This document shows, piece by piece, positions 33,279 through 41,946 of a DNA stretch of 64,000 nt (positions are counted from its first letter, which is position 1; each line of letters opens with the position of its first letter). This DNA comes from Flavobacteriales bacterium (GTDB lineage: Bacteria > Bacteroidota > Bacteroidia > Flavobacteriales_D > UBA2798): positions 1 through 64,000 of the forward strand of contig JAIBBF010000011.1 of assembly GCA_019694795.1 (NCBI GenBank), given 5' to 3'. The notes beneath the pieces are model-generated. The model did not search any database. It saw only the letters and a list, made by a program, of their open reading frames with translations, and was not told where the DNA came from. The position numbers and the translations under genes were made by a program.

Positions 33279-36200
33279 ATGAAACGATTGCTCCTTTTGT
33301 TAAGTGGACTTGCAGGATTTGCCATGCTTTGGCCCGATGAAGATCCCGCACTGAATCATTTAGAAAACATTCTCAGCAAATGGAGAAGCGCTTATCCGGA
33401 TGAGCGAATTTATGTGCAATGCGATAAATCCATGTACAATCCGGGCGACGCTGTTTGGTTTACAGCATTTGTTCGCAATGGCGAAAATTTATCGCAGCAA
33501 AGCAGCAGTCAGACTTTAACCCTTAAATTAATCAACGCATCTGGCAATTCCATCGCAGAAAAAATTTTTCACCTTAAAAACGGAATCGTAAGCGGGAATT
33601 TCGATCTGCCCAAAAATTTCCCCGGCGGGAATTATTATTTAGAATGCAGCACACCGATCAGCGAAATCCTTTGGGATAAACCTGCCTACAAAAAAGCGTT
33701 TAACGTATATACACAAGAGAGTCCCGAATTACTAATCACCGCCCGCTTCAAAGAAAAAATGTATTCACCGGGTGATGAGGTACAGCTGGAAATTGAAATC
33801 CGCACTCCGGAAAATGAAATTGCTTCGGGAGCAACCATTGACTATTCGATTCTTCAGGGTGAAGAAGAATTACTTTCGTCCCGTTTAAATGCAAATGATT
33901 CAGGAAAAGCTGTTGTGCAATTCCATATCCCGGATACCATTTCAAAAAACAATCTCCACAGTTATATAAGGGTTACCCATCAGAATAAAAAAGAAGGATT
34001 AGGAAGAGCAATCCCCTTAAACATTAATCTTCCTCACATTGAATTTTATCCTGAAAGCGGATATCTCATTCCCAATTCGCCAACTGTAGTGGCTTTTTAT
34101 GCGCAAAATGAAAATGGAATTCCGCTTAACGTTTCCGGCACCATAAAAGATGAAAACAATCAGCTTATCACTTATCTGCAAACCTTCCATCATGGAATGG
34201 GAAAATTTCATTTTACACCAATAGCCGGCAAACGATATTACGCTTTTATAAGAAACGGAAATCGTCTCGAAAAATTTCCATTACCGGAAATCAGAGACAG
34301 AGGTGTGGTGCTAAATCTGAAAGAAAACAACAAGGATTTTCTAAAATTCGTCCTTCATTCGAAGGAAGAAGATGCGTTGCTTCTAACTGCACAATCGAGA
34401 GGTAAAATAGTTTATTCAACCCGATTATCTGCACAAGCCCAACAGGAAGTACGTATTCCTGTTGGCGATTTACCCATGGGAATTGTCCAAATTACCGTTT
34501 TTAATTCTCAAAAAACGCCACTGGCAGAACGACTGTGTTTTATTCATCCTGAAAAACAAATGCGCATCAGCTTCGAGCAAATCAATGAGGAATATGGTCC
34601 ACGCGAAAAAATTAATTTTAAAATTAAAGCAGAGGACTCCAAAGGAAATCCCGTTTCGGGCGATGTAGCGCTTTCGGTGAGTGATGAAAAAGCCTGGGTG
34701 TACAATGACGACCGCAGTGGAAATATTCTCACCGAACTTTTGGTGGAATGTGAATTGAACGGAGAAATTGAAGAACCTGAATTTTATCTCGACACAAAAA
34801 ATCCGGAATCTGAACTGGCAATGGATCTTTTAATGCTTACAAGAGGTTACCGGCGGTTCGACTGGAAAACTGCATTAAAATCGAAAATCCCCGACAAGAG
34901 CATTATCGAAGCTGAAAAAACGATTGCGGGCACTGTCTATAATTTTGAAACAAACTTGCCAGAACCTCGCGCCAAAATAAAAATATTGGAAACGGGACAA
35001 AAATTCCGCTGTGATGAAAATGGAAAATTCTCGATCGAAAATCTCGATTTAAGCAGCAGAAAAACCTTGTATGTTCAACAAAAAGGAAGAACCGTTTCTT
35101 ACGTCGTTCATCGTCCGGATACCAACTTATCCATTTACTACTCCGAAAACAAATCGAGTTTTAATAGTTATGTATCGAGCGATAATACCAAAAGCTTAAA
35201 GGGTGTGGTTATGGATGGAGAAACCGGAGAACTGCTTCCTTTTGTAAATATTGTTATCCGTAAAGATGGAAAAACAATAACCGGATGCTCGAGCGATTTG
35301 GATGGGAAATTTGCAATGAACACCATTCCCGATGGATTTTATGATGTGTTGGTTGCTTACGTTGGTTATGAAAAATATGAAATTAAAAACATACAAATAA
35401 GTCAGGGAAAATGCATCAATTTGAACATTACTTTAAATGGACAGATCTATCTGGAAGAAGTAGTAATTGTAAACGAAAGCAAAAAATCTAAAAAGCCCAA
35501 ACGAGAAAATAAAAAAGAAATTGCTTATAATTCAAACGTCACTCTGGATGAAGTAACGATAGTTAATTATTCCGTTCCATTAATAAACGCAGATCAAACC
35601 AATGCTATAGAAATTAACAGGAAGGATATTATTCATTCAGCAGCCGCACGAAAAAATTTTGCAAGCAATGTGGTCCTCTCCTACCTCAGCGATAATATCG
35701 ATCCCAATCAAAACGGAGTATTAACCATTCGTGGTGCGCGCGAAGATGCCACTGTATTTTATATCGATGGCGTAAAAATCAGGGGCGAAGCAAATGTTCC
35801 CGCTTCATCCATTGAATCTATCGTTGTTTATACCGGCGGAATTCCCGCTAATTATGGTGATGTAACCGGTGGGGTAATTGACATCCGAACGCATTCTTAT
35901 CGCTCAATGTCTAATTCCTATTATTCCAACGATAATACGCACCGCACCATTCTGCAACCGGGAGAAATCATTTACGCCACTGAGCGAAAATTTCCGGAAA
36001 TCAACCACCATCATTCGGAGCAATTTGAAACAATGGTGGATGACCGTACAACGTTGTATTGGAATGGAAGAATTCAATTAAACGAAAAAGGAGAAGCGGA
36101 AGTGTCGTTTTATGCCGGTGACCTTAGTGGTCCGTTCCGAATTACCGCCGAAGGAATTTCGTCCGGCAATGAAGTGGGAAGAACGGAAAAAGTGATCATG

Positions 36201-38060
36201 GTTCAACCGGATATTAAGCTCGCAACCCCTATTCCTTCTACACTCACCTCCGGTGATGAATTAGTGCTTGAATCCACCATTCATAATAACAGTAAAAAAG
36301 AAATAAAAGGCCGGTTATTTTTGACCCTTCCCCTAACATGGAAAATGCTTATGGCCGATAGCAGTGAATACAGCATTGCGCCCGGCGAGAAAAAAACGAT
36401 AAGCAATAAAGTCAGAGTAAATGGAAATAATCAGGACTTTTCATTAGCATTTCATTTTAAAGGGAATAAAAACTATTGCTCAGAGCGACAAAAAATAACG
36501 ATTGTACCTCACGGTTTCCCCAAAACAATCATGCTGAGTTCTGAAACAGAACAGGAAATCGAATTTAATCTGGATGCAAATGAACTTCGGTCTATGGATT
36601 TAGCCTTGACCTTTTATCCGGATCCTGCTGCCAATTTTGCCGAAGGTGTAAAATCAATGATTCGCGAACCGCATGGATGTTTTGAGCAAGTTTCCTCCTC
36701 TACTTATCCCAATATTCTTGCAGTAAACTACCTGCAACAACAAAACGATTTAAAGCGGGATGAATATAATATTGCGATGAATTATATTAAAAGCGGATAT
36801 CAGCAGCTGGTAAAATACCAAACATCAGAAAAGGGATTTTCATTATACGGTCAATTACCAACGAGTCCCTACCTCACCGCTTATGGAATAATGGAATTCA
36901 CTGCCATGAAAAAAGTTTATGGCGGCGTAAATGAAGTAATGCTCCAACAAGCCAAAGATTGGTTGTTGTTGCAAAAAGATAATAAAGGTGGATTTCATTC
37001 TTCTTCCGAAGATCATTTTTATCACGTTCAAAGCGCTTACATCATCCGTGCGCTTGTTCTATCCGGAGAGTTTTCGCTGGTGCCTGAAATTATCGCTCAA
37101 TATAAATATGCGTTAAAGAAAAAAGATGCTTATTTGTCGGCCTTAATGATTGATGTCCTGTTTAAAGCAGGAAGAAAAGAAGAAGCCGACGAGCTCATTC
37201 AATCACTTTCTTCGCAACAAAAAGAAAATGGATCATTCAGCTGCGAAAAAACGATTACTTATTCCTACGGAAATCAAAAAGAAATTGAGTCGACCGCTTT
37301 AATGCTTATCGCTTTAATAAATGATGTAAAATCGAATTCCACATCCATTCACCGCTGCTTTCAGTTTCTGATGAAATCGAAAAATTCATTTGGAGGATGG
37401 GGCAGTACGCAGTCGACGGTTCTCGCTTTGGAGGCCATCAATTTATATTACGAAAAATTTCCTTTAAAAAATGATCCGGAAGAAGTAACGGTTAGCATTA
37501 ATGGAAAAGAAACATTTAAAAAAGTGTTGAATCCAGGTAATAAAGAATCGTATGCTTTTCATTTACCGGTCGCTGCTTTAAAAGTAGGGAAGAATCATAT
37601 TAAGGTCAGCAGTAAACAACAGTTTGTTCCGTGGACATTAAACGCATCTTATTTTGTTTCATCCCCCGAAAATCATCAAAACGCTTTGTCCTTATCCTTA
37701 CAATGGAATAAAAAAGAATTTCAAAGCGGAGAAATGGTGCGGGCCTTAATGAAAATCAATAACTCAAAAAATGAACAGATTCATAATCCCCTCGTTGAAC
37801 TTTCTATTCCCGCATGTTTCCGTTATGATCCGCAACAATTACGAGAATTAGAAAAACAAAAGATCATTGAACGTTATGAGGCAAGGGGAAATCAACTCGT
37901 CTTTTATTTTAAAGCGATTTCTCCAAATGGAACCCTGGAGTTTCCCATTACGCTCACCGCTACCCAAAAAGGTCTTTTCAGAAGTCCTGCTTCACGTGTA
38001 TTTCCTTATTATTCTACCGATGTATTCTGGACACAAGCCGGCGAATTCGAAATAAAATAG
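33279..38060 (+). CDS. Alpha-2-macroglobulin-type protein with embedded carboxypeptidase-like and TonB-plug domains
   Basis: A 1593-residue exported protein. After a hydrophobic N-terminus (about 3-18), macroglobulin domains begin ERIYVQCDKSMYNPGDAVWF, the MG2-type opening. Residues about 639-730 are a carboxypeptidase regulatory-like domain (MDGETGELLPFVNIVIR, then GFYDVLVAYVGYEKYEI). About 785-880 is a TonB plug-like domain (LTIRGAREDATVFYIDGVKI, then GGIPANYGDVTGGVIDIR). No beta-barrel follows; instead the alpha-2-macroglobulin core resumes at about 925 (DDRTTLYWNGRIQLNEKGEA). The thioester motif is HGCFEQ, C1134 and Q1137, followed by the alpha-alpha toroid (thioester domain). It may trap proteases and is presumably surface or periplasmic. 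Confidence 0.88.
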   Translation: MKRLLLLLSGLAGFAMLWPDEDPALNHLENILSKWRSAYPDERIYVQCDKSMYNPGDAVWFTAFVRNGENLSQQSSSQTLTLKLINASGNSIAEKIFHLKNGIVSGNFDLPKNFPGGNYYLECSTPISEILWDKPAYKKAFNVYTQESPELLITARFKEKMYSPGDEVQLEIEIRTPENEIASGATIDYSILQGEEELLSSRLNANDSGKAVVQFHIPDTISKNNLHSYIRVTHQNKKEGLGRAIPLNINLPHIEFYPESGYLIPNSPTVVAFYAQNENGIPLNVSGTIKDENNQLITYLQTFHHGMGKFHFTPIAGKRYYAFIRNGNRLEKFPLPEIRDRGVVLNLKENNKDFLKFVLHSKEEDALLLTAQSRGKIVYSTRLSAQAQQEVRIPVGDLPMGIVQITVFNSQKTPLAERLCFIHPEKQMRISFEQINEEYGPREKINFKIKAEDSKGNPVSGDVALSVSDEKAWVYNDDRSGNILTELLVECELNGEIEEPEFYLDTKNPESELAMDLLMLTRGYRRFDWKTALKSKIPDKSIIEAEKTIAGTVYNFETNLPEPRAKIKILETGQKFRCDENGKFSIENLDLSSRKTLYVQQKGRTVSYVVHRPDTNLSIYYSENKSSFNSYVSSDNTKSLKGVVMDGETGELLPFVNIVIRKDGKTITGCSSDLDGKFAMNTIPDGFYDVLVAYVGYEKYEIKNIQISQGKCINLNITLNGQIYLEEVVIVNESKKSKKPKRENKKEIAYNSNVTLDEVTIVNYSVPLINADQTNAIEINRKDIIHSAAARKNFASNVVLSYLSDNIDPNQNGVLTIRGAREDATVFYIDGVKIRGEANVPASSIESIVVYTGGIPANYGDVTGGVIDIRTHSYRSMSNSYYSNDNTHRTILQPGEIIYATERKFPEINHHHSEQFETMVDDRTTLYWNGRIQLNEKGEAEVSFYAGDLSGPFRITAEGISSGNEVGRTEKVIMVQPDIKLATPIPSTLTSGDELVLESTIHNNSKKEIKGRLFLTLPLTWKMLMADSSEYSIAPGEKKTISNKVRVNGNNQDFSLAFHFKGNKNYCSERQKITIVPHGFPKTIMLSSETEQEIEFNLDANELRSMDLALTFYPDPAANFAEGVKSMIREPHGCFEQVSSSTYPNILAVNYLQQQNDLKRDEYNIAMNYIKSGYQQLVKYQTSEKGFSLYGQLPTSPYLTAYGIMEFTAMKKVYGGVNEVMLQQAKDWLLLQKDNKGGFHSSSEDHFYHVQSAYIIRALVLSGEFSLVPEIIAQYKYALKKKDAYLSALMIDVLFKAGRKEEADELIQSLSSQQKENGSFSCEKTITYSYGNQKEIESTALMLIALINDVKSNSTSIHRCFQFLMKSKNSFGGWGSTQSTVLALEAINLYYEKFPLKNDPEEVTVSINGKETFKKVLNPGNKESYAFHLPVAALKVGKNHIKVSSKQQFVPWTLNASYFVSSPENHQNALSLSLQWNKKEFQSGEMVRALMKINNSKNEQIHNPLVELSIPACFRYDPQQLRELEKQKIIERYEARGNQLVFYFKAISPNGTLEFPITLTATQKGLFRSPASRVFPYYSTDVFWTQAGEFEIK

Positions 38061-38391: not shown

Positions 38392-41300
38392 ATGAAATCA
38401 TCTCTCCTCCATTTCATTGCGCGATTTTTTGGATTAGTTGCTTTTTTACTTGTAACAAAAGCGGCTTATTCTTCACACGCACAGAGTGCCGACATCACAT
38501 ATACCTGTGTTGGCGGAAACACGTACAACGTACGTTTATCCTTCTACCGCGACTGCGCCGGGGTTGCTGCTCCAAATACAGTGACCATCAATATTGCGTC
38601 GGCCAGTTGTAATGAAAATTTTAATATCACCATGAACCGTATTGCAAACACCGGAAATGATGTTACACCCATTTGTCCGGGTATTACCACAAATTGCGAT
38701 GGCGGATCGTATCCCGGTGTTCAGGAATGGATCTATGAAGGACCCGTAACCTTACCTGCACAATGCACCGATTGGGTTTTAAGCTTCACATTGTGCTGTA
38801 GAAACAATGCCATCTCTACCATTAATAATCCGGGTGGAGAAAATATTTATGTTGAAGCGCATTTGGATAATGCACAGTTTCCCTGCAACAATTCGGCACA
38901 ATTTTCCAATAAGCCGGTTCCTTTTATTTGTGTGAATCAAACCTATTGCTTCAATCACGGAGCAGTGGATCCCGACGGAGATTCATTGGTGTATGAATTG
39001 GTTCCTCCTGCAACAGGACCCGGAACTAACGTGACTTATTTTGCGGGCTATTCTGCCAATCAACCTTTATTAAGTATTCCCGGAGTTACCATTAATCAGC
39101 AAACCGGAGATATATGCATGACACCAAGCATGCTTGAAGTAACCGTAATGGCGGTAAAAGTTTCTGAATTCAGAAATGGTGAATTTGTGGGAAGTGTGGT
39201 GCGCGATATTCAGGTACGTGTTATTGCATGTTCAAATTCAAATCCATCAGTAAGCGGAATAAATGGAAGTAATAATTACAGCACCAGCATTTGTGCAGGA
39301 AACACACTTACATTTAATGTACAAGCATCAGATCCGGATGCAGGTCAACTGTTAACACTTACCTGGAACAATGCCATACCGGGTGCAACATTTACCAGCG
39401 CAACAGGAACAAATCCGGTAGGAACATTTACATGGACTCCCACCGCAAATCAGATTTCAACCAATCCATATTGCTTCACCGTAAGTGTAAGCGATGATAA
39501 TTGTCCCTTGAACGGATCTCAAACCTATTCGTTCTGCATTACCGTAAATGGATTTACACTTACCACCAATAGTACAAATGCCAATTGCGGCGCATCGAAT
39601 GGTACAGTGAGTGCAAGTGTGAGTGGTACGGTTGGACAAGTAAATTATGTTTGGTCGAGTGGACAAAATACGCCAAATGTAAATGGACTATCTGCCGGAA
39701 ACTATACTGTTACAGTAAGCGATGGAAGTGGTTGCGCTATTTCTTCTACTGCAGTAGTTGGCCAGGGCGCTGTGCCGGGAAATATTCAAATGCAATCGAC
39801 CAATGTGAGTTGCTTTGGAGGCAATGATGGAACAGCAACAGTAAATGTAAATGGCGGTCAGCAACCTTACACCTATTTATGGTCGAACGGAGCAACGAGC
39901 ACCAGCATTAATAATTTGTCGGCTGGAAATTATTCCGTAACCGTAACCACGGCCAATGGATGTACAACTACCGGAACAATAAGCATTACTCAACCCAATG
40001 CACCACTCAACATCACCTTAAGTGCAACAGCAGTTTCATGCAATGGCGGAAATAACGGAACAGCAACCGTTGTTGCAACAGGTGGAACTTCTCCTTATAA
40101 CTATCAATGGAGTAATCAATCGGCCAACGCAAGCATCAATTCATTAACTGCAGGAAATTATTCGGTAACTGTAATGGATGCAGGAGGATGTACACAAACA
40201 GCCAACATCAATGTAGATCAACCACAAGCCATCAGTTTAATTCAAAGTAATACAACACCTGTTTCCTGCTTCGGCGGAAATAACGGAAGTGCCTCGGTAA
40301 GTATCAGTGGTGGAACAAGTCCATATTCGTATCAATGGAACAACGGGGTAAATTCACTCGGTGCAAATGCCAATAATCTTACAGCCGGAAATTATACGGT
40401 AACTGTTACGGATGGAAATAATTGTCAGCAGTCCTTCAACCTCGCCGTAACACAACCACAACCCCTCACCGCAACAATTGGAAATTCCTCCAATGTAAGT
40501 TGCAACGGTTCCAACGATGGTAGCGCAACATCAATGGCAAATGGCGGAACTGCTCCGTATGTTTATCAATGGAACACCGTACCTGCACAAAACACACCAG
40601 GCGCTGCAGGATTAGCAATGGGATCTTATACTGTAATGGTAACCGATGCACATAACTGTACAGCAAGTGCCAGCGTAAACATTTCACAACCAACACCTCT
40701 TACACTAACTTCTGCGGGATCAGCAACAATTTGTCCTGGTATAGTTACCACCATCAGCGCCAATGCAAATGGTGGAAGCGGAAATTATTTGTATCACTGG
40801 AACAATGGTAACAACACCGCATCTTCGCAACAGGTTTCTCCAACGGCAACAACAACCTACTCCGTGTATGCAACAGATGCTAACGGTTGTATTTCTCCAA
40901 CGGAAAATATTACCATTACGGTGAACGATATTAATATGATCAGTTTTGGAATTACGTTAACACCTTCCATTTGCGAAGGACAAGCCGCTGTTGTTCTTGC
41001 AGAAATTGCAGGTGGAATCGGAAACTATTCCATTACCTGGAATAACGGATTACCGGCAAGTGTTGGTCCGCACACGATTTATCCAACCAACTCCGGATAC
41101 TACACTGCCACCATTACTGATATTTGTAATAACCAACGTACCGAATCGGCATGGATTGATGTACATCCATTACCACAGGTGCAGTTAACGCCACAAAATG
41201 CAGATGAATGTGGAGAAGCAAGTTTAACCTTGTTCAATGATTTCTCCAATGATCCTGGATCGGATTACAATTGGAATTTCGGAGATGGGGCGACTTCTTC

Positions 41301-41946
41301 ACAGGAAGTTCCAACACATATCTATCATCAAAGCGGAACGTATGTAGTAACGCTTACCGTAACCAATACGTTCTCTTGTGTAAATTCCGACAGCACCGCT
41401 GTAGTCATTAATGTTCGTCCACGTTCTACAGCAGAATTTTCGATGAACGATAATGATATTTCCATCTTCGATCCGGAAGCGCAATTCATCAATAACAGTG
41501 TACAGGCAAGTACTGCACATTGGGATTTTGGAGATGGAAGCAGTTCCAGTCTTTATTCTCCTAACCACACGTATGCCACCACAGGAACATACACCGTAAC
41601 ATTAATTGCGAATAACAATTTCAACTGTCCCGATACCATTTCTCACATTCTCATTGTGAGTCCCGAATTCACCTACTACGTCCCCAACGCATTTACACCC
41701 GATGGCGACGGAAGAAACGATGTGTTTTTCGGAAAAGGGGAGAACATCGATGAATTTGAAATGCTCATTTTCAATCGCTGGGGAGAGTTAGTGTTCAGCA
41801 CGCAAAGCAAGGACGCAGCATGGGATGGAACATACAGAGGAAGCGAAGAGCCCAAACAAGATGTGTACGTGTACAAAATAAAAATTAAAGACAGCGTAAA
41901 AGGTGATTATCACTTTTATGAGGGACACGTTGCCATTGTGAAGTAA
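38392..41946 (+). CDS. SprB-repeat T9SS type B surface adhesin
   Basis: A 1184-residue exported protein. The signal peptide is long (first 31 residues, through LVAFLLVTKAAYS). Residues about 32-280 are a Cys-rich N-terminal module common in Bacteroidota (GGNTYNVRLSFYRDCAGVA). An Ig/cadherin-like part follows (SGINGSNNYSTSICAGNT). Five SprB-type repeats come next (about 389-772), then Ig-like and two PKD-type domains (NWNFGDGATSSQEVPTHIY and HWDFGDGSSSSLYSPNHTY). The end is the gliding-associated C-terminal domain (VPNAFTPDGDGRNDVFF, then FNRWGELVF), the type B secretion signal. It is probably a cell-surface adhesin, perhaps carried by gliding machinery, though no gld or spr gene is in the window. 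Confidence 0.92.
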   Translation: MKSSLLHFIARFFGLVAFLLVTKAAYSSHAQSADITYTCVGGNTYNVRLSFYRDCAGVAAPNTVTINIASASCNENFNITMNRIANTGNDVTPICPGITTNCDGGSYPGVQEWIYEGPVTLPAQCTDWVLSFTLCCRNNAISTINNPGGENIYVEAHLDNAQFPCNNSAQFSNKPVPFICVNQTYCFNHGAVDPDGDSLVYELVPPATGPGTNVTYFAGYSANQPLLSIPGVTINQQTGDICMTPSMLEVTVMAVKVSEFRNGEFVGSVVRDIQVRVIACSNSNPSVSGINGSNNYSTSICAGNTLTFNVQASDPDAGQLLTLTWNNAIPGATFTSATGTNPVGTFTWTPTANQISTNPYCFTVSVSDDNCPLNGSQTYSFCITVNGFTLTTNSTNANCGASNGTVSASVSGTVGQVNYVWSSGQNTPNVNGLSAGNYTVTVSDGSGCAISSTAVVGQGAVPGNIQMQSTNVSCFGGNDGTATVNVNGGQQPYTYLWSNGATSTSINNLSAGNYSVTVTTANGCTTTGTISITQPNAPLNITLSATAVSCNGGNNGTATVVATGGTSPYNYQWSNQSANASINSLTAGNYSVTVMDAGGCTQTANINVDQPQAISLIQSNTTPVSCFGGNNGSASVSISGGTSPYSYQWNNGVNSLGANANNLTAGNYTVTVTDGNNCQQSFNLAVTQPQPLTATIGNSSNVSCNGSNDGSATSMANGGTAPYVYQWNTVPAQNTPGAAGLAMGSYTVMVTDAHNCTASASVNISQPTPLTLTSAGSATICPGIVTTISANANGGSGNYLYHWNNGNNTASSQQVSPTATTTYSVYATDANGCISPTENITITVNDINMISFGITLTPSICEGQAAVVLAEIAGGIGNYSITWNNGLPASVGPHTIYPTNSGYYTATITDICNNQRTESAWIDVHPLPQVQLTPQNADECGEASLTLFNDFSNDPGSDYNWNFGDGATSSQEVPTHIYHQSGTYVVTLTVTNTFSCVNSDSTAVVINVRPRSTAEFSMNDNDISIFDPEAQFINNSVQASTAHWDFGDGSSSSLYSPNHTYATTGTYTVTLIANNNFNCPDTISHILIVSPEFTYYVPNAFTPDGDGRNDVFFGKGENIDEFEMLIFNRWGELVFSTQSKDAAWDGTYRGSEEPKQDVYVYKIKIKDSVKGDYHFYEGHVAIVK
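39556..40710 (+). repeat. Five tandem SprB-type repeats, about 75-80 residues each
   Basis: Protein-level repeats within the adhesin, each of the pattern VSCxGGNxGTATVxxxGGxxPYxYxW, then NLSAGNYSVTVTDxxGCxxT and a QP step. The starts of the repeats can be followed through NCGASNG, SCFGGNDG, SCNGGNNG, SCFGGNNG and SCNGSNDG. The bases have diverged at many third positions, but runs such as CCGGAAATTAT and GGTGGAAC recur. Confidence 0.75.

Follow-up and report, generated by a model that had tools for sequence, protein, structure and literature searches.

A receptor plug in the bait region of a bacterial alpha-2-macroglobulin, and related proteins that may supply the plug in trans to a SusC-type barrel

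Why should a protease trap carry the plug of a TonB-dependent receptor? This question is raised by a gene in the window, by which we mean the whole 64,000-nucleotide stretch of Flavobacteriales DNA analysed here. A sequence-only reading had described its product as an alpha-2-macroglobulin (A2M) with an embedded plug, which might dock the trap onto a TonB-dependent or SusC-type receptor or receive a signal from TonB, for the capture of proteases or nutrients.

Combining open-reading-frame analysis with Pfam searches, we found the A2M-plug protein to be encoded by one unbroken ORF on the plus strand (33279..38060; 1593 aa, stop included), on which all features given below lie in the same orientation. 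It begins with a hydrophobic signal segment read from the sequence (residues 1-19, 33279..33335), in which no Cys and thus no lipobox was seen by eye. The MG2 domain (residues 43-123, 33405..33647; PF01835, E 7.5e-16), the A2M domain (residues 925-1013, 36051..36317; PF00207, E 1.5e-8), the thioester domain (TED, residues 1121-1390, 36639..37448; PF07678, E 3e-28) and a receptor-binding-like C-terminal MG domain (A2M_recep, residues 1505-1583, 37791..38027; PF07677, E 2.1e-6) follow each other in the order expected for an A2M, all above the Pfam cut-offs. The thioester motif GCFEQ occupies residues 1133-1137 (36675..36689), with C1134 and Q1137 as previously claimed, such that the protein is a full A2M with an intact thioester. 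The protein is exported and probably resides in the periplasm. The adjoining genes encode a nitroreductase and a SprB-repeat protein, and a pbpC neighbour is not present. The latter protein (38392-41946) contains SprB repeats, PKD and a type IX secretion signal.

The plug lies within a larger module placed between a bait-region-domain-like segment (residues 372-470, 34392..34688; PF07703, E 0.0032, a weak match below the cut-off) and the A2M domain. Immediately before the insert, alignment with relatives reveals the family motif LMLTRGYRRF (residues 518-527, 34830..34859). Two carboxypeptidase-regulatory-like domains follow: the first at approximately residues 549-621 (34923..35141; a second CarbopepD_reg stretch, with strands in the AF2 model), the other, CarbopepD_reg_2, at residues 640-730 (35196..35468; PF13715, E 2.2e-21). 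A TonB-box-like motif, YLEEVVIV, can be read at residues 724-731 (35448..35471), and another leads into the plug start as TLDEVTIVNYSVPLI (residues 755-769, 35541..35585), at the position where the order's TonB-dependent receptors have LDEVEVVEYSVPLI-like stretches. The plug domain itself spans approximately residues 765-874 (35571..35900), and no barrel match was found within the protein, so that the plug stands without its own beta-barrel. Pfam bears out the previously described order of macroglobulin domains, carboxypeptidase-like domain, barrel-less plug, macroglobulin core and thioester domain; the first of the two carboxypeptidase-like domains and the bait-region position had been overlooked. 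The bait region is thus replaced by a folded module of two carboxypeptidase-like domains, a TonB-box-like motif and a plug. Its location in the bait slot ties the plug to trap triggering, and the TonB-box-like motifs make a signal from TonB possible.

The Pfam Plug profile (PF07715) matches residues 805-866 with an E-value of 1.1e-5 and passes the curated cut-off, scoring 26.3 bits where 23.9 are required; the match is partial and modest, covering profile positions 38-107 of 107. When the insert was searched by itself the E-value was 5.4e-6. Over residues 750-880 the protein shares 38-47% identity with plugs of the order's ordinary TonB-dependent receptors (~1250 aa), with E-values down to 2.1e-27 to 2.6e-30 if the carboxypeptidase-like domain is included, and such receptor-plug matches turned up in almost all genomes sampled from the order. 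Passing the cut-off and resembling receptor plugs, the segment has better support as a plug than as a chance match or an Ig domain. It belongs to a type other than that of SusC; its N-terminal half has diverged, and the core plug motifs are retained together with the TonB-box-like motifs. In a weak tree the plugs of the order's receptors are closer to it than those of other A2Ms, a placement that would fit its capture from a receptor of local origin. Plasmid sequences searched with the window plug gave no matches.

An AF2 model of residues 400-1593 adopts the native A2M fold at high confidence, with both carboxypeptidase-like domains well predicted. It matches A2M-family proteins, native forms scoring above activated ones, and 5a42 and 4u48 are matched in both sequence and fold. 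The plug segment is modelled at low confidence (pLDDT ~30-70), so that the model is silent on where the plug sits with respect to the thioester.

Using the C-terminal part of the protein as query, we detected clear homologues in 65 of the 395 class genomes (64 when that of the window is left out) and no close homologue elsewhere in the order sampled (best other E 5e-20); a phylum-wide sample contained four homologues. The thioester is conserved among the relatives examined: GCFEQ occurs in 98 of 101 full-length rows, including all 18 plug carriers counted there, and the three exceptions are distant outgroup rows. The bait slot of the same 101 rows is hypervariable and holds charged linkers, TonB C-terminal-like domains, repeats or plugs, a lysine- and glutamate-rich linker being the filling in most. 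Profiles flagged a plug in 18 rows, a TonB C-terminal-like domain in four and both in two, where the TonB calls rest on sequence patterns and a profile from one such sequence, with no Pfam hit. Counting plugs recognised by profile or eye in a split ORF (L307) and in a protein missed by the profile (L318) there are about 20 carriers. TonB C-terminal-like domains occupy the slot in L173, L180, L182 and L183, in L180 in tandem with a plug, while in L304 (1948-8052) the bait region is enlarged by many PAEYxTVTxxV-type repeats.

The bait region of most members is closed by a YYRARxF-like motif (89 of 101 by a loose pattern), whose counterpart in the window protein is ATERKF (35976..35993). By analogy with the alpha'NT element, which threads the channel in native A2M (PMC9352918), we infer that the family motif is related to it and that ATERKF is a possible alpha'NT element. 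On the A2M tree the plug requires at least five label changes, a figure that pools gains and losses. The survey of Bacteroidota suggested by the sequence-only reading shows that plug-bearing A2Ms recur in isolates and metagenome-assembled genomes (MAGs) of several families; the architecture was not reported in the open-access literature searched, subscription papers being outside this scope.

If the plug docks on a receptor, a barrel should be at hand. Among the flanking ORFs scanned we found no partner barrel near the window gene, and the genome (99.9% complete) yielded no SusC-like barrel at E 1e-20. A single receptor of the type of the window plug is encoded there (contig C54, 1247 aa), and it retains a plug of its own. 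None of the other complete TonB-dependent receptors that we inspected was plug-less, each having a plug match either in Pfam (in one case below the cut-off) or with a profile; two further barrels, on contigs C5 and C109, are cut by contig ends. Co-occurrence with a partner barrel was thus not found at the window locus or in its genome, and nothing supported nutrient capture. The same genome encodes a second, distant A2M with GCIEQ (L072, G000 contig C45). It also encodes a stand-alone 244-aa carboxypeptidase-plug protein beside an ECF sigma gene (L325:7756-8487, G000 contig C3); similar plug ORFs of 240-300 aa occur in many genomes of the order.

A different situation was met in relatives. The plugs of A2Ms are of two types, and carriers of the SusC type lie in a single region of the A2M tree, of which they form a part, with members from Cytophagales, Marinilabiliales and Flavobacteriaceae (among them Xanthocytophaga flavus, Nafulsella turpanensis, Plebeiobacterium sediminum, Aureibaculum flavum and Psychroserpens). 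At all ten SusC-type loci initially inspected the adjacent gene encodes a SusC-like protein of 919-994 aa with a signal and a barrel, and in nine of the ten a carboxypeptidase-like domain was recognised. The plug is absent from these ten barrels: no Pfam Plug hit was obtained at E up to 1, nor any significant match of a plug profile with the filters off. At locus L263 the full SusC model of NCBIfam (TIGR04056) is split between the two genes, the barrel gene taking 190-980 and the A2M gene 70-205. For the L263 barrel, AF2 gives a confident model from about residue 199 onwards; the region corresponding to the SusC plug is disordered at 92-170 and mostly of low confidence up to 196, and the best Foldseek matches of the model are solved SusC structures. 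The barrel gene lies upstream of the A2M gene at nine loci, with gaps of 3-5 nt in six, one overlap, one gap of 42 nt and one of up to 286 nt; in L318 it lies downstream by 195 nt.

Searching 149 genomes of the family of G283 with the barrel profile (A2) added seven barrels without an ordinary plug, each 2-4 nt from a plug-bearing A2M gene. This gives a total of 17 split loci with 16 complete barrels and one cut by a contig end. Among 345 genomes of the class the sole match to the whole barrel profile was the already known G080 pair. Nearly all other matches in the class start past the plug position within longer ORFs of ordinary SusC size, the few exceptions reaching contig or ORF limits, and the close ordinary SusCs retain their plug. 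In the available flanks no plug-less barrel was seen beside plug carriers of the other type or beside 81 A2Ms without a detected plug outside the SusC-type clade; since flank lengths are unequal, the absence is less certain at short loci. An exact test of 10/10 against 0/90 gave p 6e-14, a value that ignores relatedness.

The distances of A2M and barrel correlate (Mantel r 0.84, p 0.0005); for the plug alone against the barrel no significant correlation was obtained (r 0.18). In every pair the identity of the plug was equal to or higher than that of the preceding stretch, in most clearly higher. The plug tree, which included only six ordinary SusCs, had little support. The adjacent plug-less barrels and the division of the SusC profile between two genes strongly suggest that A2Ms of the SusC-type clade supply the plug in trans to the neighbouring plug-less barrel. 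To our knowledge, this split SusC–A2M system is undescribed. The proposed docking on a SusC-type receptor thus finds strong support from gene order and content in the sister clade (17 loci), while no partner was found for the window protein.

How might such a protein act? The two ends of a receptor plug point to the periplasm, which makes seating in trans topologically possible. From the periplasm, the A2M plug would enter an outer-membrane barrel, and its two ends would run back to the A2M body. In this arrangement the trap would hang under the barrel, and TonB would pull directly on the bait loop. A protease that enters through the barrel, or that meets a pulled-out, loosely folded plug, would cut the loop; the cut bait would retract, the trap would close and the thioester would bind the protease. 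In agreement with this order of events, human A2M is triggered by cleavage, i.e. loss of bait continuity, and retraction rather than by tension; the finding that longer bait regions lower the yield of native human A2M counts against the proposal (PMC9352918). We give an even chance to this picture of a thioester trap in which the bait serves at the same time as a TonB-linked plug and which guards the doorway into which the plug is seated. Slightly short of even we place the overall reading that Bacteroidota have split a transporter such that its plug, as the bait of a trap, is given in trans to a plug-less barrel and arms the doorway, with the window protein doing the same at a putative partner. 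The lacking partner barrel, the other plug type and the low-confidence plug model count against docking of the window protein, whose plug may seat in some barrel or serve mainly as a TonB-linked folded bait.

Alternatively, the bait slot may merely tolerate insertions, and the window plug would then act only as folded bait or decoy, having lost contact with any barrel and with TonB. The hypervariable content of the slot, the result of the partner search and the weakly modelled plug would all agree with such a decoy, as would many short, TED-less homologues that carry a plug, no adjacent plug-less barrel being present at the nine such loci inspected. The conserved core plug and TonB-box-like motifs argue in the opposite direction, as does the joint presence of SusC-clade plug and plug-less barrel in every case examined. 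Overall, we regard a decoy as quite possible, if doubtful. An improbable explanation is an envelope sensor that relays TonB or protease events at the bait loop to gene regulation. It draws on four Saprospiraceae MAG loci (L287, L302, L304 and L307), where the plug-bearing A2M is extended at its N-terminus by a segment containing a membrane helix and is preceded by an ECF sigma factor-like gene (in L302 and L307 Pfam confirms the sigma-70 regions), as well as on the stand-alone carboxypeptidase-plug gene adjoining a sigma gene in the window's genome. These four A2Ms are possibly transmembrane regulators with an A2M sensor; their extension has no Pfam match, which leaves anti-sigma a by-eye reading, and the window protein has neither such an extension nor a sigma gene seen beside it. 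That an Ig or carboxypeptidase domain was misread as a plug, or that the ORF is an assembly chimera, is hardly credible despite the partial Pfam match, given the curated cut-off passed and the matching receptor plugs throughout the order, and is refuted by the same architecture in independent genomes.

If the plug works in trans, part of a nutrient transporter has been rebuilt into a trap resembling innate immunity, nature has distributed a SusC-family plug and its barrel over two proteins, and the force of TonB would be exerted straight on a bait region. The split system would then offer a concrete, testable function for bacterial A2Ms, which have no known natural targets, and a reason why some Bacteroidota proteins contain receptor plugs without a barrel.

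With bacterial type I A2Ms (E. coli ECAM/YfhM, Salmonella SaA2M) the window protein shares the MG domains, the A2M domain, the TED with CxEQ and the C-terminal MG domain. It differs in its bait, where a plug module takes the place of a disordered loop, and has no visible lipobox and no recognised ECAM-type N-terminal MG extension. Since the ECAM subfamily consists of lipoprotein A2Ms beside pbpC, the window protein lies outside it on both counts. The TED-less MG2-plug proteins of Bacteroidota (770-960 aa) share its N-terminal half, and a plug lies at the same place in most of the examples scanned; they end soon after the A2M start and lack the thioester domain. We know of no convertase system for a bacterial plug-bearing A2M. 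Complement C3/C4/C5 belong to the same superfamily and likewise carry a folded domain, the anaphylatoxin, at the equivalent place, whereas here the inserted domain is a plug and the host is bacterial. In complement this domain (ANA) is placed before alpha'NT (PMC9352918). With TonB-dependent transporters the window protein has the plug (PF07715) in common but not the beta-barrel. The closest likeness to SusC/RagA transporters (TIGR04056) is found in its relatives, in which the A2M carries a SusC plug and the adjacent gene encodes a SusC barrel; unlike in SusC/RagA, plug and barrel reside on separate genes, the barrel being plug-less and the plug lying inside a protease trap.
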